DNA of 64,000 nt from Anaerolineales bacterium. GTDB lineage: Bacteria > Chloroflexota > Anaerolineae > Anaerolineales > Villigracilaceae. The translations under genes and the position numbers were made by a program. Location: the NCBI GenBank assembly GCA_016932715.1, contig JAFGCG010000090.1, forward strand, positions 48,040 through 112,039, in the 5' to 3' direction. Below the pieces are notes generated by a model. It saw only the letters and a list, made by a program, of their open reading frames with translations, made no database searches and had not been told where the DNA came from. This document shows, one piece after another, positions 11,659-25,152 of the stretch (position 1 is the first letter of the stretch; every line of letters begins with the position of its first letter).

Positions 11659-12096
11659 TTACTTCCTTGACCTAAACCAGCCCCTTTCTTTCGCTGTAAG
11701 CTTTCTGTGGCAGTTGGCACAAAGCACTTGGGTCTTTTTCAGTTCTTCCTCAAGCCTTGCTATATTGGTTACTCTTGTTACCATCTCAGCTATTGCCATA
11801 TCTTTACTGTGGAGGTGGTGGAACTCAAGTACAACAGGGTTACTCTCACCGCAGGATTCGCAAGGGTGAGATAACAGATAATTCCACAAGTATTCCCTTA
11901 CGGTATCACGGTATTCTGCGCTATGCTTTCTGGCATTTGCTATCTGGTACTCCTTATTTCTCTCGTACCATTCAGCACCGTAAATTTTCCTACAGTCTTT
12001 GCAGTAGGATTGTCTTCTTGCTGTAAATCGGTTCCTTAAAGGGAACTCCTCAATATCTTTTTCAACAAAACATTTGGTACAAACTTTAGTTGCCAT
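11659..12096 (-). CDS. HNH endonuclease
   Basis: CTKCFVEKDIEEFPLR...YCKDCRKIYGAEWYERN...HPCESCGESNPVVLEFHHLHSKD...VLCANCHRKLTAKE. Confidence 0.85.
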   Translation of the reverse strand: MATKVCTKCFVEKDIEEFPLRNRFTARRQSYCKDCRKIYGAEWYERNKEYQIANARKHSAEYRDTVREYLWNYLLSHPCESCGESNPVVLEFHHLHSKDMAIAEMVTRVTNIARLEEELKKTQVLCANCHRKLTAKERGWFRSRK

Positions 12097-12727: not shown

Positions 12728-14191
12728 TTGATGCAACGAAAGCGAGGCAAGGCTTTGGAAAACCTGGTTGGCAGGACCATTGGCAAGTACAAGATCAGCG
12801 AACTGCTTGGGAGAGGGGCAATGGCAGAGGTGTATAAAGCCTATCATGAACGACTCGACCGCCATGTGGCAATCAAGATTTTGCATGGTCACCTGGCAGA
12901 GGGGCAGGATTTCCTTGCGCGCTTCGAGCGCGAGGCACGCGCAGTCGCGGCTCTGCGTCACCCACATATTGTACAGATCTACGACTCCGACGTCGAAAAT
13001 GGCATGTATTACATGGTGATGGAGTTCGTCGACAGCGGGAACCTGCAGGCGCGCATGGCTGGGTTGGCCGGTAAGGGTCAATACATGCCAATTGCACAGG
13101 TCGTGTCACTCGTGCGGCAGGTCTCGGAAGCGCTGGACTACGCCCATCGCCGCGGTATCCTGCATCGCGATGTCAAGCCCTCCAACGTTCTGTTGGATCA
13201 ATTCGGAGACGCGCACCTGGCTGACTTCGGGCTGGCACGTATCGTCAGCTCTTCGTACTTTACCGCCACCGGGACGCTGCTTGGGACGCCGACCTATATG
13301 TCGCCGGAGCAGGGTCAAGGTTTGGAGTTGACGCCAACGAGCGATATTTACTCACTGGGGGTCATCGTTTACGAGTTGTTGACGGGCCGGGCGCCCTTCA
13401 CTGCCGATACACCTCTGAGCGTGATTTACAAACACATCCACAATGTGCTGCCAGCCCCACGAAGGCTGCGGCCGATACTGCCCGTGGAGGTGGATGCGGT
13501 CATTTCCCGAGCGCTGGCCAAGGATCCGCGTGAGCGTTACCCGACCGCCCTGGAGATGGCCCAGGCGCTGGAGCGGGCCCTGCCGATCGAAGCGATCGCT
13601 ACTGTGGACGAAGCGGGCTCGACGGCGGGGAGCTCCATTTCAGCATTGCCCACTGTGCTCATGCAAGACAAGACGCAGAAGATGCCTGTCGCTGCGGAGC
13701 CTCCTGTGCAGGAACACGCTGCAGAGGCACAGAGTCCCGCCGTAACCCCGGTTTTGGAAGAGAGAGTTCAGGAATCGCCCACGGAAGCCCATCGTCCGCA
13801 CATGCGGCGGTGGAGCAGATTCCTGTTGGTCGCTCTCGCCATCCTAGGCTTGATTGCCCTGGCAGTCCTGCTATTTGTAAATAGAGGTCCGATCAGCGAG
13901 TCTGAGTGTTCGACTTTTGAAGCGTGCATGATACAGGCAGATGACTTAAGAAGCCAGGGAAATTTGGTGGGTTATGTGGATTCAGTTGCCATGGCGCTCG
14001 ACCGTGTCCCTGCCAACGAGCATCCTGCGACTGCCTTTCTATGGTGCGACCGCGCCGACGCATTGAAGGAATTGGGTCGGGTGGACGAATCAAGAGAAAA
14101 CTATCATCTGTGCATCGAGTGGACCGAAGGCGACCCTGACCTGCAATGGCTGCGCGAGCGGGGCGACGAGAGTTTGAATAGTCTTCGCTGA
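12728..14191 (+). CDS. Ser/Thr protein kinase with TM helix and C-terminal TPR-like extracytoplasmic domain
   Basis: GKYKISELLGRGAMAEVYKAYHERLDRHVAIKIL...HRDVKPSNVLLDQFGDAHLADFGLAR...; TM FLLVALAILGLIALAVLLFV. Confidence 0.92.
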   Translation: MMQRKRGKALENLVGRTIGKYKISELLGRGAMAEVYKAYHERLDRHVAIKILHGHLAEGQDFLARFEREARAVAALRHPHIVQIYDSDVENGMYYMVMEFVDSGNLQARMAGLAGKGQYMPIAQVVSLVRQVSEALDYAHRRGILHRDVKPSNVLLDQFGDAHLADFGLARIVSSSYFTATGTLLGTPTYMSPEQGQGLELTPTSDIYSLGVIVYELLTGRAPFTADTPLSVIYKHIHNVLPAPRRLRPILPVEVDAVISRALAKDPRERYPTALEMAQALERALPIEAIATVDEAGSTAGSSISALPTVLMQDKTQKMPVAAEPPVQEHAAEAQSPAVTPVLEERVQESPTEAHRPHMRRWSRFLLVALAILGLIALAVLLFVNRGPISESECSTFEACMIQADDLRSQGNLVGYVDSVAMALDRVPANEHPATAFLWCDRADALKELGRVDESRENYHLCIEWTEGDPDLQWLRERGDESLNSLR

Positions 14192-14286
14192 ACATCTGTA
14201 AACTATGCGTATGTGAAACGGCTGGAATTGCGAAAAGCAATCCAGCCGTTCTTTCTATCCGTTTTCCTTACCTGCCTGCGCCTTCT

Positions 14287-14586
14287 TTATTCTGTTCCTT
14301 TTGTGAGCCGCTGCCCCGCTTTGTTCTTGTCCGGTTCTATACCCTGGGGCTCGTCGCCGCCTGTTTCTTCCTCCTTTGGTGGCGCGGTTTCCACTTTGTC
14401 GTTTTCGGCAGCATTGGTTGTCACCGACTCGAAGGCAGTCTGGATTGCTTCGGACTGTTTATAGTCCCCGGTCCGTTCCACGTGCGCCCGCGGCTCGAAG
14501 GTTGCCTCGTCCAGTGACTCCGTTTCCGCACGGCGGGTTTCGCTGGTTTCGGAGGCGTCTTCGGGTTGAAGGATGATCTCGTCCAT
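14287..14586 (-). CDS. Acidic MDEII-type small protein (module A)
   Basis: MDEIILQPEDASETSETRRAETESLDEATFEPRAHVERTGDYKQSEAIQTAFESVTTNAA; paralogous N-terminus in the 16144-17574 product. Confidence 0.75.
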   Translation of the reverse strand: MDEIILQPEDASETSETRRAETESLDEATFEPRAHVERTGDYKQSEAIQTAFESVTTNAAENDKVETAPPKEEETGGDEPQGIEPDKNKAGQRLTKGTE

Positions 14587-14702
14587 TTTTGCTCCTTGGG
14601 TCAGCAGCGGTTCGACCTGCAAAGAGAAAACCGTTGCCTTCTCTTCTTCTATTCTATCCCCTTTTCCTCTCAGGTTAAAAGGAGAAGGGTGAAAACCATG
14701 CC

Positions 14703-15233
14703 TCAGGGCGGCGATGGAAAACTGACTTCCAACTCCTGCCCAGGTTCTAGGGTGACCGTTCTGAGCGCTCCGACGCAGTATGTCCCGGGCAGAAGATTCT
14801 CAATCCGGTAGTAGCCCTCGCCATTGACCGGCGCGCTGGCCACTTCCTTTGAACTTGGGCAAGGTCCTTCATAGACCGGCATGGTGCTTCCTGCTCCGGG
14901 CGATGGTTCACCGGGGTCATGGCGATCGTTCATGTTGGAGTCGATGTAATCCCAGCCGAAGATGACGCCGCGCGGTTCTCCTTCGGGTTGCTGCTCGGGC
15001 GGATGGATCTCTTCAGGCGGAATTTCTTCGGGCGGAATTTCTTCCGGGGGACGATTCTCCTCGGGAGGGAATCCTTCCTGTGGATGGAACTCTTCGGGCG
15101 GACGTTCCTGAGCCGGAAAATTCTCCTGTGGCGGGTCATTGGACACAGGAACCACCTTGAAGGGCAGGTTGCAGCTCATTGCCGCCAGCGCCAGTGGGGT
15201 GATGATCGCCAAAATCAAATAACATTTTTTCAT
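14703..15233 (-). CDS. Lipoprotein with Pro/Glu repeats (module A)
   Basis: MKKCYLILAIITPLALAAMSCNLPFKVVPVSNDPPQE; PPEEIPPEEIPPEEIHPPEQ. Confidence 0.78.
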   Translation of the reverse strand: MKKCYLILAIITPLALAAMSCNLPFKVVPVSNDPPQENFPAQERPPEEFHPQEGFPPEENRPPEEIPPEEIPPEEIHPPEQQPEGEPRGVIFGWDYIDSNMNDRHDPGEPSPGAGSTMPVYEGPCPSSKEVASAPVNGEGYYRIENLLPGTYCVGALRTVTLEPGQELEVSFPSPP

Positions 15234-15251
15234 AGTATCGCTCTCCTTTTG

Positions 15252-16061
15252 TTACATCCCGGCGCGCGGAATGGACTCCTGGTTGGCTGCCTGGAACAGG
15301 CGCAGCTCTTCCTCCGGGATAGCCAAGCGTGATTTCGCCATACCCAGCATCAACAGGCAGTAGGATAGATTGACCAGGTGCTCGATCTCGAGGAAGCCCT
15401 CCTGTGTCCCTGTCAGCCCGGCGATATGCCGAATGGCAAAACCATAAACCGGGCCCAGAGGTGATTGTTCGGGGGCAGGCTTGTTGACTTCCGCCGCCAG
15501 CATCGCGCGCAATTGGCCGAACTGCGGATCAGAGACCAGGCTGAAATAGCCGTAGTGACAAGGGAGCCGGCAGAACTGGCAGCCCTTTTTACGGTGCAGA
15601 CGGTTCTCAGGCAAGGCTCTTTGCTTGATGCGAGCTACGTTGGCCACCTCTATTTGGAAGGCGAGTGTCTTCTCGGGGCTTTTGTCGGCATTTCGAGCCG
15701 TGTTGATCAGCGCCTCGACTCGGAACGGGCTGGGTTCGCGTGTCCCTTCATGGAAGGCTACGATCCGGCGGCAGACCTCCGGAATAGCAGCTTTGAAGTA
15801 CGCCGCCTCCTTCATCCCGGCTGATTCGGCCAGCGCCTTGCGCAGGGGCTGGGTCAACTGTTTAAAGTCCGCGATGTGCGCCGGTGGACAATAGGAAAGC
15901 AGGTAAAAATAAGCGATAGTCTTTTTCAACGATTCGAGGGACAGGAGTTTTGGCTCAGCGTCTTTTCTCGTTTGCACTGCAGTCGAAGCAGAAGGATTCT
16001 TTCCTCGGGTCGACTTCGTCTTCTGATCTTTGACGGAATGGGATTTCGTTTGCATGATCAT
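15252..16061 (-). CDS. Conserved Cys-motif protein HRKKGCxFCxLPCxYGYF (module A)
   Basis: YFYLLSYCPPAHIADF...ENRLHRKKGCQFCRLPCHYGYFSLVSDPQF; paralog at 18910-19647. Confidence 0.75.
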   Translation of the reverse strand: MIMQTKSHSVKDQKTKSTRGKNPSASTAVQTRKDAEPKLLSLESLKKTIAYFYLLSYCPPAHIADFKQLTQPLRKALAESAGMKEAAYFKAAIPEVCRRIVAFHEGTREPSPFRVEALINTARNADKSPEKTLAFQIEVANVARIKQRALPENRLHRKKGCQFCRLPCHYGYFSLVSDPQFGQLRAMLAAEVNKPAPEQSPLGPVYGFAIRHIAGLTGTQEGFLEIEHLVNLSYCLLMLGMAKSRLAIPEEELRLFQAANQESIPRAGM

Positions 16062-16143
16062 TCTCCTTGCATGATGTCAGCGTGTCTCCGTGGATGTGGA
16101 ACTGTCCGTGAGGAAGTGGTCGACTTCCTCGCGGACAGACCGC

Positions 16144-17574
16144 CTATGACGCAGCTTTCTTAGCCTTGTCGGCTTCGTCGAGGACGTTGGGCGTGTAATA
16201 ATCGGGGTCATCGGGGTTGTTGGGCCGATCTGCACTGGCGAAGAGTCCGCCATACCAATGACCCTCATCCCCTGATGTGCCCGGCTCACCCCCGCCGCTG
16301 CCTGACCCGCCGACCATTTTGCCGTCAACCGAGACGACCACGTTGAAGTGACCGCTTTCCTGATCTGCGCCGCCGATGGACTGCGGCTCCGGCTTCTCTC
16401 CACCTACACCTGAACCTGTATAAGGAATGGGAGAACCTCCTTCCAGTGGGTTGTATATTTTAGACATGCTTACTGAGGTCGAGTTCCAGTTTACAACGTA
16501 GATACCATCGTCTCCACTTATCGTATATTTACCCGAGCTACCCTGATTAGCACTTTTCATTTGAGCCATTTCGAAGGCACGCCGCGCCGTTTTCCCGGCG
16601 CTATCATTGCTTTTGCCTCCGCCGGAATCTGAGTTCCCATGCTTATCCTTCTCCGTGTAGTTGAATTTTGTTCCACCACCTTTATCCTCTCCATACATAC
16701 CGGGGCCATACCCATGTACTGGTAGTCCACCACCCGATGAGGAACTTCCGGACCCATATTTATTTTTGTACCCTTCTATGTCATTACTGCCGGGCACCTT
16801 AGTGCTGTGAGATCCCTCCTGATATCCCGGACCGTAGCCTTCGACAGGACCCGAATGTGTTTTTCCTGGGCCCGATCCATCCAGCATGCCGTGAGTCCCT
16901 TCGCCAATTAAGCCCTTCTCTTTTTGCACCAAGTCCTCGGGAATCAACCGTTCTTTTCCCTGCGGGATGCCAGCTATGTCTGTACCCTCCAGCTTGCCCA
17001 CTTCGACCGTGTTGTCCGCAGCCTGAGCCTGTGACGGGTCTGCGGCCTCCGCGTCGGATACCGGCTCTCCAGGCAGCGCGTCCAAACTATATTCTCCACT
17101 TGCTTCATCGCCCACAGTGGCTTCCTGACCCTGCGCCTGCACGTCATCGTTCTGTCCGCCAAACTCATCCCCCGTCAGTGGATCCTTGCCCAGCTTGTTT
17201 TGCGTCAGATCCTGGATAACAACGTCCGGGTTTTCCAAATTTTGCACGCCCGGCAGGTTGATAGGTGTGGCGGCAGGCTTGTCATCATCACTGGATTCGG
17301 ACGGCTTTGCCTCTTCCAGGTCACCGCGCAGCTTGGGCTGCTGCCCAGACACGCTTTTGTCCTGCTCGACCGCCGCATTCTGCGTCGAGCTTGCAGCGTT
17401 ATTTACCACGCTGGTGAAATCCGTCTGGATGGCTTCGGATTGTTTGTAGTCCCCGGTCCTTTCGACATGAGCCTTCGGCTCGAAGGTTGCCTCGTCCAGT
17501 TTCCGAGCCTCGGTGCTCTCGGTCTTTTCGCCGGTTTCACGGGTTTCCTCGGGTTGAGAAATGATCTCGTCCAT
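16144..17574 (-). CDS. Large acidic, Gly-rich MDEII-type protein (module B)
   Basis: MDEIISQPEETRETGEKTESTEARKLDEATFEPKAHVERTGDYKQSEAIQTDFTSVVNNAA, then a Gly/Ser-rich region. Confidence 0.75.
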   Translation of the reverse strand: MDEIISQPEETRETGEKTESTEARKLDEATFEPKAHVERTGDYKQSEAIQTDFTSVVNNAASSTQNAAVEQDKSVSGQQPKLRGDLEEAKPSESSDDDKPAATPINLPGVQNLENPDVVIQDLTQNKLGKDPLTGDEFGGQNDDVQAQGQEATVGDEASGEYSLDALPGEPVSDAEAADPSQAQAADNTVEVGKLEGTDIAGIPQGKERLIPEDLVQKEKGLIGEGTHGMLDGSGPGKTHSGPVEGYGPGYQEGSHSTKVPGSNDIEGYKNKYGSGSSSSGGGLPVHGYGPGMYGEDKGGGTKFNYTEKDKHGNSDSGGGKSNDSAGKTARRAFEMAQMKSANQGSSGKYTISGDDGIYVVNWNSTSVSMSKIYNPLEGGSPIPYTGSGVGGEKPEPQSIGGADQESGHFNVVVSVDGKMVGGSGSGGGEPGTSGDEGHWYGGLFASADRPNNPDDPDYYTPNVLDEADKAKKAAS

Positions 17575-17665
17575 GTCGACTCCTTATGAAAAAGTAGATA
17601 GTGTTATGAATATGAAACTTCCTGCCTCCTCTCCCAATTGGGAGAGGAGGCGATTCCGGTCACCT

Positions 17666-18577
17666 TTACTTGACTTTAATGTTATTCAAGGCATTATTCC
17701 CACTGTTTGCATCGTTGGCGGGCGGCGTGATCTTGCAGGAGACATACAGTTCCTTCATTTGGGGATCGCGCGCGTATCCTGTCTCGTAATCGGCTGTCTG
17801 GCCCGGGGCAAGGTTAATCGTGATTGTTTTGTTCTGGGGTGGCGGATAAGAATCCTGACCATTCGGCTTGATAACCTTAGCCTGACAACTTACCTTGATG
17901 TTGTTCTTCACGTCCTGGGTGCCTGCGTTCCTGATCCGGATCATGATCTTCCCCGAGGCGGCGGAGTAGATCTGGTTCACTCCAAGATCGAGAAAGTAAA
18001 ACTGCACAACCAAAAAGGTGGGCGTTGGGGTAGGTCCTTTCTTCGTCGGCGCAGGCTTTTGAGCAGGTTTTTGAGTAGGCTGGGGTTGTGGGGGGGGAGG
18101 CGGATTCCCCTGGTTTTCCTGCACGACATTCACCGTGACCTCACGTTCCTGGACCTGTTCACCGGCGCGCACTGTCAGGCGATAATTGGTCGTTGCTTGT
18201 GGACAAACTTCTCGAACGCCACCCTGGTCGACGCGTTCTCCATTTAGCGTGACTTCAGCCGCTCCCTGCACGCCCCATTCCAGGGGAGTACATTCACCGG
18301 ATCGGATCTCTGTGCGGTGGGCAAGGAAGAAAGCAATCTGTGCTTCACCGGCTTGCTCGGGCGGAACTTCCTCCGGCGGACGATTCTCTTCGGGCCGAAC
18401 TTCTTCCGGTGGACGGTTCTCTTCGGGCCGAACTTCTTCCGGTGGACGGTTCTCTTCGGGCCGAACTTCCTCCAGCGGCACGTCATTGGATGCGGGAACC
18501 ACTTTGAAGGGCAGGCTGCAACTTGTGGTCACCAATGCCAGGGCAATGAAAGCCGTGATCAAACTATTTTTTTTCAT
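17666..18577 (-). CDS. Lipoprotein with EENRPPEEVRP repeats and C-terminal CARDB-like domain (module B)
   Basis: MKKNSLITAFIALALVTTSCSLPFKVVPASNDVPLEE; 11-aa repeats; C-term NAGTQDVKNNIKVSCQAKV. Confidence 0.8.
   Translation of the reverse strand: MKKNSLITAFIALALVTTSCSLPFKVVPASNDVPLEEVRPEENRPPEEVRPEENRPPEEVRPEENRPPEEVPPEQAGEAQIAFFLAHRTEIRSGECTPLEWGVQGAAEVTLNGERVDQGGVREVCPQATTNYRLTVRAGEQVQEREVTVNVVQENQGNPPPPPQPQPTQKPAQKPAPTKKGPTPTPTFLVVQFYFLDLGVNQIYSAASGKIMIRIRNAGTQDVKNNIKVSCQAKVIKPNGQDSYPPPQNKTITINLAPGQTADYETGYARDPQMKELYVSCKITPPANDANSGNNALNNIKVK
18358..18477. repeat. 33-bp tandem repeat, about 3.6 copies, inside the lipoprotein gene
   Basis: cgggccgaacttcttccggtggacggttctctt starting at 18358, 18391, 18424 and 18457. 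Confidence 0.9.
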
Positions 18578-18759
18578 CTTACACTCTCCTTTTCAATAGA
18601 TATATGAAATTTATGCGATGTGTACATGGTGAGTTCGTGTGAGGAGAGTTGATATGCTATTGGTTGAGCCTCGAACGTCGAACTCCTGGGAAAATATATG
18701 TAGTATGGCTGGTGGGTGTTCTGCCTCCTTTCAAATCTCGACTCCTGATTCTGGAAAAC

Positions 18760-18860
18760 AAAAAGCTCCTTATTCATGCGTCGGACAGACCTGGCAATTG
18801 CCTGGGTCGGTCCTGAGCAGAGTAAGGAGCTAGTGGTGTGGTCTCAGGAAAATTATTTAG
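18760..18860 (-). ncRNA. Candidate structured RNA/leader element, copy 2
   Basis: 57-nt ungapped match (48/57) to copy 1 on the opposite strand; TAGAAT -10-like box 8 nt upstream; ends in AGCTCCTTA...TAAGGAGCTTTTT. Confidence 0.6.
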
Positions 18861-18909
18861 TTGAGCTTATTCTATACAGTTTTCTTTAAAAGACTATGGT
18901 TCTCTGTTC

Positions 18910-19647
18910 CTATTTTGAACGATGATTGGAAAGCGTCGCCAGGACCGACAGCCTTTGTACTTGATCGCGGCCGGCAGCCTGGAAAGTCAGCAGTTGTTCC
19001 TCCGGCAGTGCCCGCCGTGACTTTGCCATTGCCAGCAGGAGCAGGCAGTATGACATGTTCTTCAGATGTTCCGGCGTGATGATATATGTTTCGTCGCTGC
19101 CTGTTATCTGATGGAGGTGGCGCAGTGCGAATCCCCATACGGCATAAATGGGACTTTGTTCAGCAGGGGGCTTCCGTGTTTCGGTCTCCAGCATTTCCTG
19201 CAAAACATTGAACTGCGGTTCTGAGATCAGTGTAAAGTAACCGTACCAGCAGGGAAGACTGCAGAAGGAACAACCCTTCTTGCGGTGCAAACGATTTTCG
19301 GGTTTGGCTCGCTGCGGCAGCTGCGCGATGCGAGCTATCACCTCCTGGTAGGTCGTTACTTTTTCGGGGCTTTGATCCGCCTCACCCGCTGCCTGGATCA
19401 AAGCCTCCACATATTCCTGGCTTGGTTCGCGCGTGCCTTCATGATAAGCCACGATCCGGCGGCTGACCTCCGGGATGACCTCCTTGAGATACTCTTCCTC
19501 CCTCACCCTGCCATCCTCGGCAAATTGCCTGATGAGCGGCCGGGTGACATCTTTGAAATCCGTGATGCTGTCCACCGGACAGTAGGCAAGCAGATAAAAG
19601 TAGGCAATAGTTCTTTTCAGGATTTCAGTGGAAATATTGCCATTCAC
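18910..19647 (-). CDS. Conserved Cys-motif protein HRKKGCxFCxLPCxYGYF (module B)
   Basis: YFYLLAYCPVDSITDF...ENRLHRKKGCSFCSLPCWYGYFTLISEPQF. Confidence 0.75.
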   Translation of the reverse strand: MNGNISTEILKRTIAYFYLLAYCPVDSITDFKDVTRPLIRQFAEDGRVREEEYLKEVIPEVSRRIVAYHEGTREPSQEYVEALIQAAGEADQSPEKVTTYQEVIARIAQLPQRAKPENRLHRKKGCSFCSLPCWYGYFTLISEPQFNVLQEMLETETRKPPAEQSPIYAVWGFALRHLHQITGSDETYIITPEHLKNMSYCLLLLAMAKSRRALPEEQLLTFQAAGRDQVQRLSVLATLSNHRSK

Positions 19648-19682
19648 GTCATCATCTTCTTTCTTTTGGTGCTCATTGGTCT

Positions 19683-22484
19683 CTAGGCTGGAGGTTTGGG
19701 AATGGGCGTATGCGAGACTTTCACCCAGGAGGCACCGTCATCCTGGATGCCGCACACGATCGCCTGGCCCACTTTGAGGCGCGCGATCACTTTGGCCTGA
19801 TCCTCCGTCAATGCCATCGCACCCGCCATGGCCTGACAGTCGTCCGCAGCAACCAGGCGGTGGACGATTTTCAGGTTCGTGTTCTTCAGCGCATCCGGCA
19901 CGAGTTTGGAAGGTACCTGGTCGATGATCGCCAGTCCCTGGCCGTAGGCGCGGATCTCTGCCAGGATATCGGCGAACATCTCGCCCATTTTGACCTGTGG
20001 GTTGGCGCTGTCAGCCACGAAGTGAGCAGAGCGCAAAATACGATGCGCCTCTTCGATCACCGCCAGGTGGAGCAGTTCACTGGATTCCGGCGAGCCGGCA
20101 CTTTCGTGCTGAGCCTGACGATATTCATACATGAAATTCAGCAAGAGCGCCATGGTGAAGCATTTGTCGGCGTCGTCGCCCATCTGCTGCAGGTTGATGA
20201 CGACCGGCTGGTCGAAGAGTTCTGCCCAGGGTGTCGAGGCCGGCTGGTCGAAGAGACGGCCCTTCCAGCCGCGCATCAGGCTGCCGATGCGCGTCCGCAG
20301 CGCGGCGGTAATGTTATCGGTGATGCGCTGCTCATAGCCTTTGGCGCGCACCAGTCCGGTCACGCGGGCGTGCAGCTGGCTGAGCGTCGGGCATTGGATG
20401 TCTTCGGGCGGCAGGTCATTCTCCAGCCAGCCCTGACTTGCGTAAAGATCGACCAGCGCCTCCTCCAGGATGACCGGCAGGATCTCGTACATGGGGAAGC
20501 TGGCATTGAAGATGGATTTCAGCCGGTCGAGATGGGGCAGGACCTGGGTCAGCGCGCCCGGCATACGGATGATGTCAAAGGGGTTGAGGCGCAGCTCGTT
20601 GATAGGGCTGCCACCCCACTCACTTCGCCCGGGAATGTATACAGCGATCTTGCGGTCGAACGTGCCGGCCCGGTTGTATGCCAGCGCCATCTGAACATAT
20701 TCATCCTTGGCGGGTTCGATGACCAGGAAGTTCCGGCCATGCTCCATCAGGCTGGTGATCAGGCGGCGGCAGGTGTTCGATTTGCCGCTGCCGGTAATGC
20801 CAGTGATGAAGATGTGGCGGGTCAATGTGTTGAGATCCACGTTGTAATCCAGGTCCCCGATCTCCTCGCCGCCCTCGAGCAGGTTCCCCAGGCAGAGCGT
20901 GACGCCCGATGCCTCCACCGGCGGCGGGTTCAGGCTGAAGAACGCTGATGGCTGCATCGGCATGCCGGGCATCTCACGCAATGGAAGATTGGCGAGCAGG
21001 GATAGTTCTTCCGTGTTAAGCGGTGTGGTCAGGTTCTCGAACGCCTCTCCCAGCGGATGGTGGAGCTGGTCATCTTCCCCCGGCGCGAACAACCGGAGAG
21101 GCGGGTGCTGGAAGGCGTCCAACGCGACCTGGATCTGTCCATCCCATAGAGGCTTCAAGTCATGGGCGCGGATAGGTTCACCAGCACTCTTCGCCCCACT
21201 GACCAGTGCCTTGAACTGGGCCTGGCCCTGGGCGGCAGCTTCACTCTGGTCGCTGATCAGATATACACCGACGTTCCAGCAGCCTAGCGACTTGGCGATC
21301 TCGAAACGCGCCGCGGTCTTCTCCAGCAGCTTGACGCAAGCCTCGGCATGTTTGTTGAGATACTCCTGCCCGAACGACATCGACTCGCTCGACGTGGTCC
21401 CCTCGCTGGTCGACAGGCCGGTCGACTTGCTCCTCCCCTCCGTCTCCGAGAAGCTGGTTCCACCTGAAGCTGAGGTGTTCGAGGACGGTAGCAGCTGCCC
21501 GAACAGGCCCATCATTCCGGAGAGCAGGAAGGGTCCGCCGGCAGCCAGCAGCAACCCGGATACGGCGGCCAGCCCGGCGACTTTAAAGCCTTTCCCCGCG
21601 CCGCTCGACTTTTCAACCATTTCGCCCAATACACCCTTGCTTTTGCCGCTGCTCTTGCCTTCGGAAGTGCCGCGCGAAGTGCCGGAGGACGTGGTATCAC
21701 TCTCACTGCGTGAGACGGAGGACGAGGTCCCCGTGTTGGCGCTGCGCTGGATGGTGGACTTGGTAAAGGCATGAACCTGCCCTGCCAGCGTATGGCAGGC
21801 GGTCACGATGCTGCTCACCTCTCGTTCCGGCATGGGATCGGCGATGACCATATAAATGTACGGCTTGCCGCGCAAGCCGCGCATGAACCGATCCAGGCTT
21901 TGCGGATATTCCTCGAGCTTTTCTCCGGATTTGGCAGAGGGAATGCCGGTGAAGGCGCGCCCATAGCGATAGGTGCTGAGTGGGGCATGGATACGATCGA
22001 CGATTTGCTTGTAATCGCCGACGGCCTTGACGCGCGTCCCGGGCCAGTTGGCGCACAGGAATTGACCCAGTTGGGCGGCGAAGAACCTGGGCTGGGTCCC
22101 GGGGGCTTTGGCATTCACGCCGATAAAGATGCGGCTGCGCAGACCATCGCTGCTGATGACAAAGATCATCGTGTAGCGGGGATCGTGACAGGCCGCCAGG
22201 GTCGTCTGGATCGCCTTGAAATATTCCCCGGGCTTTTCGGTGACCGGTTTGCCGACCTGCTCGATTTCCAGAAATGCCAGGTCCTGCTGCTGCGGCGCGT
22301 CGAAGGGGATCAGGCGCAGTGAATCGTTCTCGAAGACCGGCCCATCCAGGTAGTCACGGCCGAGTGTGAACAACAGAGACTTGGACAGGGCATCGCCCGC
22401 TAACATCAGCGTTTCCGCCGAGGGGATTTCAGCCATGCCGGATTCTGGTTCGTCTGCCGGGATCAACTGTTTTTCTTCAGCCAT
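19683..22484 (-). CDS. HerA/DUF87-type ATPase with Ser/Gly-rich linker and hydrophobic segment
   Basis: Walker A HIFITGITGSGKSNT; Walker B LLHLAVIEEAHRIL; linker SSSVSRSESDTTSSGTSRGTSEGKSSGKSKG; hydrophobic VAGLAAVSGLLLAAGGPFLLSGMMGLFG. Confidence 0.85.
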   Translation of the reverse strand: MAEEKQLIPADEPESGMAEIPSAETLMLAGDALSKSLLFTLGRDYLDGPVFENDSLRLIPFDAPQQQDLAFLEIEQVGKPVTEKPGEYFKAIQTTLAACHDPRYTMIFVISSDGLRSRIFIGVNAKAPGTQPRFFAAQLGQFLCANWPGTRVKAVGDYKQIVDRIHAPLSTYRYGRAFTGIPSAKSGEKLEEYPQSLDRFMRGLRGKPYIYMVIADPMPEREVSSIVTACHTLAGQVHAFTKSTIQRSANTGTSSSVSRSESDTTSSGTSRGTSEGKSSGKSKGVLGEMVEKSSGAGKGFKVAGLAAVSGLLLAAGGPFLLSGMMGLFGQLLPSSNTSASGGTSFSETEGRSKSTGLSTSEGTTSSESMSFGQEYLNKHAEACVKLLEKTAARFEIAKSLGCWNVGVYLISDQSEAAAQGQAQFKALVSGAKSAGEPIRAHDLKPLWDGQIQVALDAFQHPPLRLFAPGEDDQLHHPLGEAFENLTTPLNTEELSLLANLPLREMPGMPMQPSAFFSLNPPPVEASGVTLCLGNLLEGGEEIGDLDYNVDLNTLTRHIFITGITGSGKSNTCRRLITSLMEHGRNFLVIEPAKDEYVQMALAYNRAGTFDRKIAVYIPGRSEWGGSPINELRLNPFDIIRMPGALTQVLPHLDRLKSIFNASFPMYEILPVILEEALVDLYASQGWLENDLPPEDIQCPTLSQLHARVTGLVRAKGYEQRITDNITAALRTRIGSLMRGWKGRLFDQPASTPWAELFDQPVVINLQQMGDDADKCFTMALLLNFMYEYRQAQHESAGSPESSELLHLAVIEEAHRILRSAHFVADSANPQVKMGEMFADILAEIRAYGQGLAIIDQVPSKLVPDALKNTNLKIVHRLVAADDCQAMAGAMALTEDQAKVIARLKVGQAIVCGIQDDGASWVKVSHTPIPKPPA

Positions 22485-24072
22485 CGTCCTCACCACCTTT
22501 GGTTGCCTGATTCCACGAGAGAACGAACTTCGTACTGCCGATGGCAACCTCATCGCCGGAAACCAATGGGTACGATTTGTGCGGCGTCAGGCGCTCGCCG
22601 TTCTTAAACGTCCCATTCGTGCTGCCAAGATCGACGACCTCCAGCCTCTCATCTTTTGCGTGAAATTCAGCATGGAAACGCGAGATGTTCAAATCATCGA
22701 TTTTGATGTCATTTCCCTTCCCCCGGCCGATTGTGGTGACGCCAGAGTGAAGGACGGTAATTTCGTCCTCCGCCGAGATCAGCGCCCAGGACGGCCCTGA
22801 ATCTGTTTCTTCGGGCTTCAGCGCCCCGGACGGGAAAATGATCGAGCTTTCAGCCTGCATGGCTGAGACACCGAACTCCAGGCCGATCCCCTGGGCGACG
22901 ATTTCATCCGCGTTATCGGCGATGATCACCTTTTGACTGCCAAAGTAGGAGTGCAGATATTCGACAATCGAAAAGAGTTGCGCGCCGCCGCCTACCAGAA
23001 TGACCTGCCCGATCTCTTCCCGGCGGATCGCGATGGCTGCCAAAGCCTTGTCCAGCAAGCGATGGAACTCCTCGTCCAGTGAACGCGTAATCTCGCGGAA
23101 GCGCACCTCACTCAGGGTGATGGTGCGGCGGTACACCTTGCCGTCTCGCGTCACGAGCGTGATTGTGCGCTGGGGTGTATGTTTTCCACGATTGGGGTGT
23201 ATCAACTGGCGGCTCAATGATTCCTTGAGACGCTGACCGGAGATGCGCAAAGAGATCAAGGCCGAGGGATCATCGATTAACGCCGTTGCAGGAATGGACA
23301 GCTCATCAGCGATGCTCTTTGCCAGTTCGGCATCGTACAGACCGCCGCCGAAGAGCTCGCCGTAACGTCCGAGGTATTCCAGATTGCCGCTCTTCGAATG
23401 AACTTGCCCGGCAATGATATCCGTTGTGCTGCCGCCGATGTCGATGATCAAGGTGATTTCCGCCGCATCCTGTCCTCCCAGCATCCCGCCTCGCTGCAGG
23501 CTCAAGATGGCGCCATCCGGCTCCGAGACGAAACGGACCTGCTCGAACGATTCACCGAGACAACCGCGGACCAGCTGCGTGAACTCTTTGAATACCTGCC
23601 CTCCATGATCGTAACGCCAGTGTACCGGATAGGCGAAGGCAAAATGAACACGGTCATCAAAAGCTTCCGCGCGCAGCTTTTCCTGCCGAAGCTGGTCCAG
23701 CACGGCGGTTAAGAGCATCCTGGTGTATTCCAGCGCCTGGGTATGAGTGTAGCATCTTTGATGGGGCAGGGGGTTTTGTTGGATGTGGGCGCCAATGCAT
23801 GGCTTGAAATAATCACGCACGCGCTCACGCGTATGTTCGTTCTCCAACTCCTGCTGGGCGGTTTCGCCAAAGCTCTCAAGGGCCGACCCGGCCGGATCAA
23901 GGCAAATCACTGCCGGCAGTTTACGATCGATGAAACTGGTCAGCGGCGAAGGCTGCGGCTCGCCCAACATCTGGGCACTCCCATCGGACATCTTATACGT
24001 TGCCCGGAAGAGCCGCCAGTTTGTTGCACCACAGTCCAGTGCGAAGAGGGTTAATTGCCCTTTGTTTGACAT
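22477..24072 (-). CDS. Hsp70/actin-fold ATPase fused to C-terminal FHA domain
   Basis: LFALDCGATNWRLFR; ITLIIDIGGSTTDIIAG; VILVGGGAQLFS; FHA TTIGRGKGNDIKIDDLNISRFHAEF...VVDLGSTNGTFKNGERL. Confidence 0.88.
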   Translation of the reverse strand: MSNKGQLTLFALDCGATNWRLFRATYKMSDGSAQMLGEPQPSPLTSFIDRKLPAVICLDPAGSALESFGETAQQELENEHTRERVRDYFKPCIGAHIQQNPLPHQRCYTHTQALEYTRMLLTAVLDQLRQEKLRAEAFDDRVHFAFAYPVHWRYDHGGQVFKEFTQLVRGCLGESFEQVRFVSEPDGAILSLQRGGMLGGQDAAEITLIIDIGGSTTDIIAGQVHSKSGNLEYLGRYGELFGGGLYDAELAKSIADELSIPATALIDDPSALISLRISGQRLKESLSRQLIHPNRGKHTPQRTITLVTRDGKVYRRTITLSEVRFREITRSLDEEFHRLLDKALAAIAIRREEIGQVILVGGGAQLFSIVEYLHSYFGSQKVIIADNADEIVAQGIGLEFGVSAMQAESSIIFPSGALKPEETDSGPSWALISAEDEITVLHSGVTTIGRGKGNDIKIDDLNISRFHAEFHAKDERLEVVDLGSTNGTFKNGERLTPHKSYPLVSGDEVAIGSTKFVLSWNQATKGGEDDG

Positions 24073-24359
24073 GATTTATTCTGCGCATCGCAACATCAAC
24101 CAACACTTTTAGGAGGGTGACCACAGTACCTTTAATATGTTTTCCCCCCTGCTGTTGGAACGATAAAATTATTATATCGTAAACCCAATGCTCATACATC
24201 AGCCGAATTTCCTAACCATACCTTCCAGGTGATCAAATTCCTTTCTTTCAAGTGAGAAGTGCCCGGCAGACGGCAGAGGCCATGCGGGTGATAGGTATTC
24301 GCTGGAATAGGAACAGAGTCCTGATTTCCTTTTCTGACGAATGGTTACAATGAGACAAG

Positions 24360-24497
24360 CTAAATAGTTTTCCTGAGATCACTCCCATAGCTCCTTTTCC
24401 TGCTCAGGACTGACCCTATGCCATCGCAAGGAGGGGAGTGTCCAATTCGAGTGAATTGAGACAGTCTGTGCTTGCTGGCACAGACTGTCTTTTTTTC
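24360..24497 (+). ncRNA. Candidate structured RNA/leader element, copy 1, ending at a terminator
   Basis: TACAAT -10-like box at 24346; TCCTGAG/CTCAGGA stem, AGCTCCTT/AAGGAG potential pseudoknot; terminator at 24459-24497; 48/57 match to copy 2. Confidence 0.6.
24459..24497 (+). terminator. Rho-independent terminator
   Basis: AGACAGTCTGTGC-TTGCTG-GCACAGACTGTCT + T run. Confidence 0.92.
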
Positions 24498-24639: not shown

Positions 24640-25152
24640 ATGAGATTGCTTGAAAATAATGAATTAAGGAATCTTATGACCATCTTGTTCACTCCAGAAT
24701 TAGCCGAAGATCTTATTGACCTCACTATCTTTTCTAGACAACCGCACCAGTTAATTCCCATATTGCAGTACTGCCAGAGTCAAAACGGTTATATTTCCAG
24801 GGAAACGGTGAGGCAGATCGCCGATTATCTCGGCGTTTCGGAAGCTCATGTTTACGGTGTGGCATCTTTTTACACCCAGTTCCGCTTCGAGAGGCCCGGC
24901 GATCATCAGGTCCGGATCTGCCTGGGCACGGCCTGTCACGTTCAGGGTGGAGAAATCCTGTCGGAGGAAATCCAGAAGATCATCGGGATCAGACCCGGAG
25001 AGATCTCCCAGGACCAGAAATTCGAGTTCCACGAAGTTGCCTGCCTGGGCTGCTGCGCGCAAGCGCCGGTGGTTGAAGTGGATGGAAGGATTTACGGGAA
25101 GGTGACGCGCAGGAAATTACAGAAGGTATTGAGGGACCATGAATCGATTTAA
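24640..25152 (+). CDS. NuoE-like [2Fe-2S] subunit
   Basis: SREtvrQIADYLGVSEAHVYGVASFYTQFRFERPGDHQVRICLGTACHVQGG...CLGCCAQAPVVEVDG. Confidence 0.9.
   Translation: MRLLENNELRNLMTILFTPELAEDLIDLTIFSRQPHQLIPILQYCQSQNGYISRETVRQIADYLGVSEAHVYGVASFYTQFRFERPGDHQVRICLGTACHVQGGEILSEEIQKIIGIRPGEISQDQKFEFHEVACLGCCAQAPVVEVDGRIYGKVTRRKLQKVLRDHESI

Follow-up and report, generated by a model that had tools for sequence, protein, structure and literature searches.

Tandem riboswitches and aptamers, for example those for TPP or glycine, carry one motif twice within a single leader. In the Bacillus subtilis trp leader controlled by TRAP, in the RAT elements of BglG/LicT and in ANTAR targets, a protein-binding hairpin overlaps a terminator, and the trp leader also carries a hairpin that sequesters the Shine-Dalgarno (SD) sequence. 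SAM-II riboswitches adopt an H-type pseudoknot. The SAM-II riboswitches of metZ and metA in Sinorhizobium reside in small leaders which involve both a terminator and the SD sequence, and termination yields an sRNA termed RZ (PMC9373788).

Here, a stretch of 64,000 nucleotides from an Anaerolineales bacterium (the window) was analysed, in which a sequence-only reading had pointed out a structured RNA element present in two copies. This element is likely to form the 5' part of cis-regulatory mRNA leaders that make up a new family within Anaerolineales, copy 1 being an orphan version. The leader probably switches genes for lipoproteins and disordered proteins by transcription termination combined with hiding of the ribosome-binding site.

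Copy 1 (24360-24416, plus strand) and copy 2 (18804-18860, minus strand) were reported to match without gaps at 48 of 57 positions, which was exact on recount. The extent of the repeat had been underestimated, however: repeat finding gave a length of 111 nt including the promoter (24306-24416 and 18804-18914; 72% identical), with a site AATAGGAACAGAG at the upstream end. Within the whole genome the two copies match each other with a BLAST E value of 3e-11, and BLAST detected no third copy there. The core TAGCTCCTTnCTCnGCTCAGGA occurs twice in the window compared to 0.00 occurrences expected by chance. Both copies have a TAnAAT box ending 8 nt before CTAAATA, and both contain the proposed hairpin TCCTGAG:CTCAGGA with a loop able to pair with AAGGAG (AGCTCCTT:AAGGAG), just as described. 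That no open reading frame accounts for the element was borne out by a test for small ORFs. An apparent similarity of 'PIA' peptides was considered and rejected, as the apparent frames have no start codon in common; the differences between the copies are spread across all codon positions.

The site AATAGGAACAGAG, a putative operator, is located at 24306-24318 on the plus strand in copy 1 and at 18902-18914 on the minus strand in copy 2, where it overlaps the stop codon of a gene for a 245-aa CxxC protein. In both copies TAGGAACAGAG lies exactly 27 nt upstream of the putative -10 box, and its only two occurrences in the 4.9-Mb genome are at these copies. The -10 boxes TACAAT (24346-24351, plus strand) and TAGAAT (18869-18874, minus strand) were assigned by sequence and by the fixed spacing to the operator; a σ70 consensus including a good -35 element was found at neither copy. 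Because the site is identical at 13/13 positions and the core at 48/57 while the 27-nt spacer matches at only 11/27, both ends of the repeat appear to be under selection. In relatives of the same family the site is often a dyad (ATAGG-n8-CCTAT; AAATAGG-n8-CCTATTT in G767), which suggests a dedicated activator.

Homology searches covered sampled genomes of the order (399), the class (397), the family (152) and the family of G355 (147). The core was first modelled from sequence only (R1), domain 1 then as a covariance model (R2), and domain 2 by a further model (R3). R1 and R2 revealed 15 copies of domain 1 in nine Anaerolineales genomes belonging to three families of the order: two each in G000, G027 and G050, one each in G222, G270, G767, G391 and G064, and four in tandem in G355. 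Copy 2 and 12 full-length relatives are two-domain mRNA leaders of approximately 250-300 nt. The distribution of the element is patchy, as is that of the gene cluster linked to it, whose Hsp70-FHA protein was present in 20 of 200 genomes of the order. In a BLAST search with the copies against 60 relatives, only the core in G050 was recovered, together with an unrelated Anaerolineales repeat GCGGAGTAAGGAGCG. A pattern scan of 85k genomes gave nine matches, of which only that in G222 was real and the others arose by chance. The interspersed repeat GCGGAGTAAGGAGCG...CGCTCCTTACTCCGCTCAGGA of sister genomes (L019, L020, L089) owes its likeness to the core to chance and is a potential source of false matches when searching for the motif.

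The statement that the element could not be assigned to an Rfam family was upheld. Apart from two tRNAs elsewhere, nothing in the window matched Rfam 15 at the gathering score, and none of the known families including 6S RNA, SAM-II, preQ1, T-box and RAT did so. Five relative loci searched at permissive thresholds yielded nothing beyond chance; the sub-threshold matches were only to eukaryotic miRNA/Plasmodium, AS-traG or Lacto-phage families. A description of the element or its gene cluster was not found in the open literature, which is not proof of absence. The element belongs to a so far undescribed family of structured leader RNAs from Anaerolineales (Chloroflexota).

Domain 1 consists of a 5-bp hairpin with a loop of constant length which carries AUAGCUYCUUACUC and overlaps an intrinsic terminator. 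In all 15 copies the five core pairs are intact, CCUGA (or UCUGA) being able to pair with UCAGG (UCAGA, UCGGG); the loop comprises 27 nt in 12 copies and 30 nt in three. Domain 1 of copy 2 (18752-18865, minus strand) matched R2 with 102 bits. Its hairpin pairs 18843-18849 with 18811-18817 and its loop motif AGCTCCTTACTC is at 18820-18831. The sequence-only reading had credited copy 1 with a strong terminator; this was correct, yet copy 2 has one as well, a long imperfect hairpin ending in AAGGAGCTTTTTGTTTT (18755-18771), with the 3' arm AAGGAGC at 18765-18771 and the U-tract at 18755-18764. In folding calculations, truncated transcripts of nearly all copies adopted the early hairpin, and full-length domain 1 folded into a terminator starting within the loop (AGCUYCUUACUC...GAGnAAGGAGCUUUUU). 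Folding z-scores of the terminator, computed for nine copies, lay between -2.8 and -5.9, the value for copy 2 being -5.9.

Many copies with covarying stems had been named beforehand as the support to look for. Additional copies were found, and the terminator covaries, the early hairpin only weakly. Across 13 copies the terminator comprises 19 pairs with 88% of cells paired and ten pairs showing compensatory changes. Its covariation score was 0.369 compared to 0.229 +/- 0.023 after shuffling (reached in 0/500 shuffles, a significance that is overstated because the copies are related) and dropped to 0.11 when the alignment was slid by one column. Compensations in CCUGA:UCAGG were restricted to G355 and G391 and were not significant (permutation p=0.28), since both arms are nearly invariant. 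The consensus terminator leaves the A and G of UCAGG unpaired in spite of their near invariance, so that UCAGG is needed for something else, the simplest candidate being its pairing with CCUGA. The early hairpin and the terminator may be mutually exclusive or may coexist, stacked as an H-type pseudoknot; the potential pseudoknot between hairpin loop and AAGGAG noticed initially is topologically possible in every copy. In most copies an AAAGGAG box, a third SD-like sequence, follows some 20-40 nt past the terminator with no start codon after it (AAAGGAGG at 18724-18731 on the minus strand in copy 2).

All 13 full-length copies therefore carry the arrangement expected of an attenuator leader, namely an intrinsic terminator lying past the promoter but ahead of the start codon, and a 5' hairpin that competes or overlaps with it. 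One might regard this as a passive arrangement in which a conserved regulated promoter precedes a terminator whose sole task is to end transcription of the upstream operon, without any switching. The dedicated operator is compatible with that explanation, and there would be a use for a terminator 3' of the 245-aa gene. A passive terminator placed between the promoter and the gene would, however, block the latter, and conservation is concentrated in the loop sequence and the two alternative pairings. We consider this explanation highly improbable.

The initial inspection had missed a second structured domain of copy 2 at 18628-18688 on the minus strand (R3, 55.6 bits; P1 GUUC:GAAC, P2 GAGG:CCUC, loop AAUAGCAUAUCAACUCU). 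Domain 2 is a hairpin whose loop AUAGCnnnnnnACUCUCC resembles that of domain 1 and can alternatively pair with the SD sequence GGAGAG. R3 detected it beside every full-length domain 1 and in one additional copy at a contig end in G270, and revealed nothing further that was convincing in the window. In 13/13 full-length leaders the hairpin GAGG...CCUC is positioned 36-77 nt before the start codon. Its outer helix shows compensation (GAGUUC:GAACUC, AAGUUC:GAACUU, GUUCCG:CGGAAC) or an extension (GUGAGG:CCUCAC or AUGAGG:CCUCAU). Arms from the same copy pair better than those from different copies (mean -12.6 vs -9.8 kcal/mol; 0/5000 permutations), an advantage owed in part to the relatedness of the copies.

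In copy 2 the SD sequence AGGAGAG of the controlled gene (18584-18590, minus strand) is complementary to CUCUCCU of domain 2. GGAGAG was found before 11 of the 13 leader-controlled genes, compared to 6 of 103 other SD-bearing ORFs of the same loci. Partition function calculations gave SD:CUCUCC pairing, in competition with P2, as the main state in most copies. The hallmark of a translational switch, a leader complementary to the SD sequence that competes with another helix, is thus present: CUCC complementarity is kept in 12 of 13 copies. The exception is copy 2 of G355, which retained the domain 2 hairpin and lost CUCUCC. The loops of both domains have the motif (CACAA)AUAGC-n5/6-ACUC(U) in common. 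Their mean local alignment score was 15.7, with a null mean of 11.3 and a null maximum of 14.0 in 300 shuffled sets; as the copies are not independent, a single motif common to both loops is suggestive rather than proven. The likeness is clearest in G767 (CACAAAUAGCUUCUUACUCU and CACAAAUAGCAUUUCAACUCU).

Fourteen of the 15 copies are located beside target genes or at the matching position of the cluster, the exception being copy 1. The gene order is Ser/Thr kinase, Hsp70-FHA, HerA-like ATPase, 245-aa CxxC protein, leader and target gene. Targets are of two kinds: some encode a lipoprotein, the others a probably disordered protein that is rich in Gly, Pro and Asp and has a conserved N-terminus. 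The whole cluster is not visible on every contig. The G391 copy runs off its contig, yet follows the same CxxC gene; G027a has only the target gene nearby, and the cluster is present at the other copy of this genome. In the window, the linked operon (18910-24072, minus strand) encodes the Hsp70-FHA protein (22477-24072), the HerA-like ATPase (19683-22553) and the CxxC protein (18910-19647). The controlled gene (17666-18577, minus strand) codes for a 303-aa lipoprotein (MKKNSLITAFIALALVTTSCSLPF...), homologs of which follow the leader in G027b and at all four G355 copies. Next comes the gene for a 476-aa Gly/Pro/Asp-rich, probably disordered protein (16144-17574, minus strand), with homologs directly 3' of the leader in G222, G050, G064, G270, G767 and G027a.

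It could be argued that the copies are independent genes of a trans-acting sRNA family whose CUCCUU/CUUCUU loop serves as a seed for AAGGAG in other mRNAs. Every domain 1 does come with a promoter and a terminator of its own, copy 1 is solitary, and the loop, the most conserved part, is complementary to SD sequences. Fourteen of the 15 copies, however, are found at one and the same position, ahead of genes of the same two kinds, domain 2 always follows downstream and reaches the SD sequence, the four tandem copies in G355 precede one lipoprotein gene each, and the loop has a matching partner close by in the terminator arm as well. A trans-acting family is therefore unlikely, and the cis-regulatory leader is the reading followed here.

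The gene cluster itself (12728-24072 in the window; loci L058, L060-L073, L114-L120 and L134-L135) is patchily distributed and resembles a secretion or signalling machine; PADLOC, NCBIfam and Pfam returned only general domains and nothing specific. Its kinase has a C-terminal region, and the HerA-like ATPase a Ser/Gly-rich hydrophobic insert. Lipoproteins and disordered proteins have the N-terminal motif LDDAT.EPR..VEQTGDY..AEAIQ in common. The unit of CxxC protein, lipoprotein and disordered protein is duplicated in tandem (14287-18577; genes at 18910/17666/16144 and 15252/14703/14287), the second unit being devoid of an RNA leader, with 18 nt between its first two genes. Both lipoprotein genes contain 33-nt tandem repeats (18321-18479 and 14992-15135) coding for PPEEVRPEENR-like segments. 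The product of a small ORF (11659-12096) adjoining a tRNA-Arg gene contains CxxC pairs, finishes in an HNH-like sequence (HHLHSKD...CANCHRKLTAKERGWF) and is possibly an HNH endonuclease.

The 245-aa CxxC protein matched no entry in Pfam, NCBIfam or PDB, and a three-sequence AlphaFold2 model of moderate confidence resembled no solved fold. Its position makes it a candidate for an RNA binder or bound factor and, given its presence in leaderless clusters of family f8, no more than that. Searches with R2 and R3 detected no leader in these f8 relatives, so the cluster machinery does not require it.

Copy 1 is the orphan. Its domain 1 RNA (24358-24442, plus strand) matched R2 with 23.8 bits, and its hairpin pairs 24371-24377 with 24403-24409. 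Two further pairings are possible, one joining the loop AGCTCCTT (24389-24396) to AAGGAG (24428-24433) and one joining CACTCCC (24380-24386) to GGGAGTG (24434-24440), a rebuilt version of the loop pairing (CACUCCC-n3-GCUCCUU with AAGGAG-GGGAGUG). The terminator (24458-24497, plus strand), a perfect 15-pair stem plus T-run, is as strong as claimed, but is a hairpin separate from AAGGAG, which has no U-tract after it. One copy in G050 likewise diverges from an Hsp70-FHA gene but has a target gene behind it; the window lacks that gene, and the nuoE operon lies 3' of copy 1 instead.

The proposal that copy 1 is a leader or attenuator of the nuoE-nuoF-nuoG operon (first gene starting at 24676 or 24640) could draw on its upstream location on the same strand, but appears scarcely credible. 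A strong terminator with no visible alternative fold intervenes, ending approximately 180 nt before the nuoE start, and R3 found no domain 2 at copy 1 or before nuoE. Moreover, nuo genes, including nuoE homologs, are absent beside all other copies, the only nuo-like neighbor being a ferredoxin-like match to nuoF with 24% identity in G355. The other suggestion made at the outset, an sRNA, is the natural reading of this copy: a promoter under the same control as that of copy 2, some 138 nt of RNA and a perfect terminator. As operator and RNA core are conserved and the spacer has diverged, copy 1 is not a recent duplicate or neutral relic. Since it has retained the promoter together with domain 1, is devoid of domain 2 and of a target, and has its own terminator, it is probably a free RNA, acting as a stand-alone small RNA or a decoy for the same regulator.

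The family, both structures, the linkage to target genes and the SD complementarity were computed here, and from them we infer transcription, switching, the direction of control, a regulator and the role of copy 1 as follows. Transcription would start just past the -10 box, at AAC(A)AAUAAAUA. Domain 1 would fold first into the CCUGA:UCAGG hairpin, displaying AUAGCUYCUUACUC in its loop of 27 or 30 nt; on further transcription this loop would pair with GAGnAAGGAGCU and complete the terminator. After read-through, the loop AUAGC...ACUCU(CC) of domain 2 would either be held in its hairpin or sequester the SD sequence GGAGAG. The default state would then be OFF, both loops pairing downstream to cause termination and SD sequestration, whereas bound or stabilized hairpins would permit read-through and leave the SD sequence free (ON), a polarity that is itself presumed. 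A putative regulator, either a small molecule or an RNA-binding protein, may read the common loop motif and set both gates alike, probably ON when bound; the uncharacterized target genes point to no particular ligand. The copy 1 RNA of about 138 nt might serve this regulator too, either as a decoy or as an sRNA. Tentatively, the leader may be a tandem sensor RNA with two similar ligand- or protein-binding motifs acting at two levels of control, copy 1 having evolved as a tuning decoy or sRNA; we hold this less firmly than the leader family itself.

Such a family would add a structured RNA to a phylum with few characterized regulatory RNAs. Its anatomy is clear, its targets form a defined set, and a single genome may have as many as four copies. 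It also offers a handle on an unstudied kinase/Hsp70-FHA/HerA-like cluster and the genes for lipoproteins and disordered proteins in it. A loop motif that is present twice and serves two gates of the same leader is a design open to direct testing. Like SAM-II leaders, these leaders combine a terminator and an SD sequence and allow a pseudoknot; in contrast to them, they differ in sequence, targets and organisms, have no Rfam match and contain two similar domains, one for each level of control. The same motif occurs twice as in tandem riboswitches, but serves two different expression platforms and matches no Rfam aptamer consensus. As in protein-controlled attenuators a hairpin overlaps the terminator, and as in the trp leader an SD-sequestering hairpin is part of the same RNA; the (G/U)AG triplet repeats, RAT consensus and dual-hairpin ANTAR site of those systems were not seen here, and what distinguishes the Anaerolineales leaders from all of them is their large loops of 22-30 nt.
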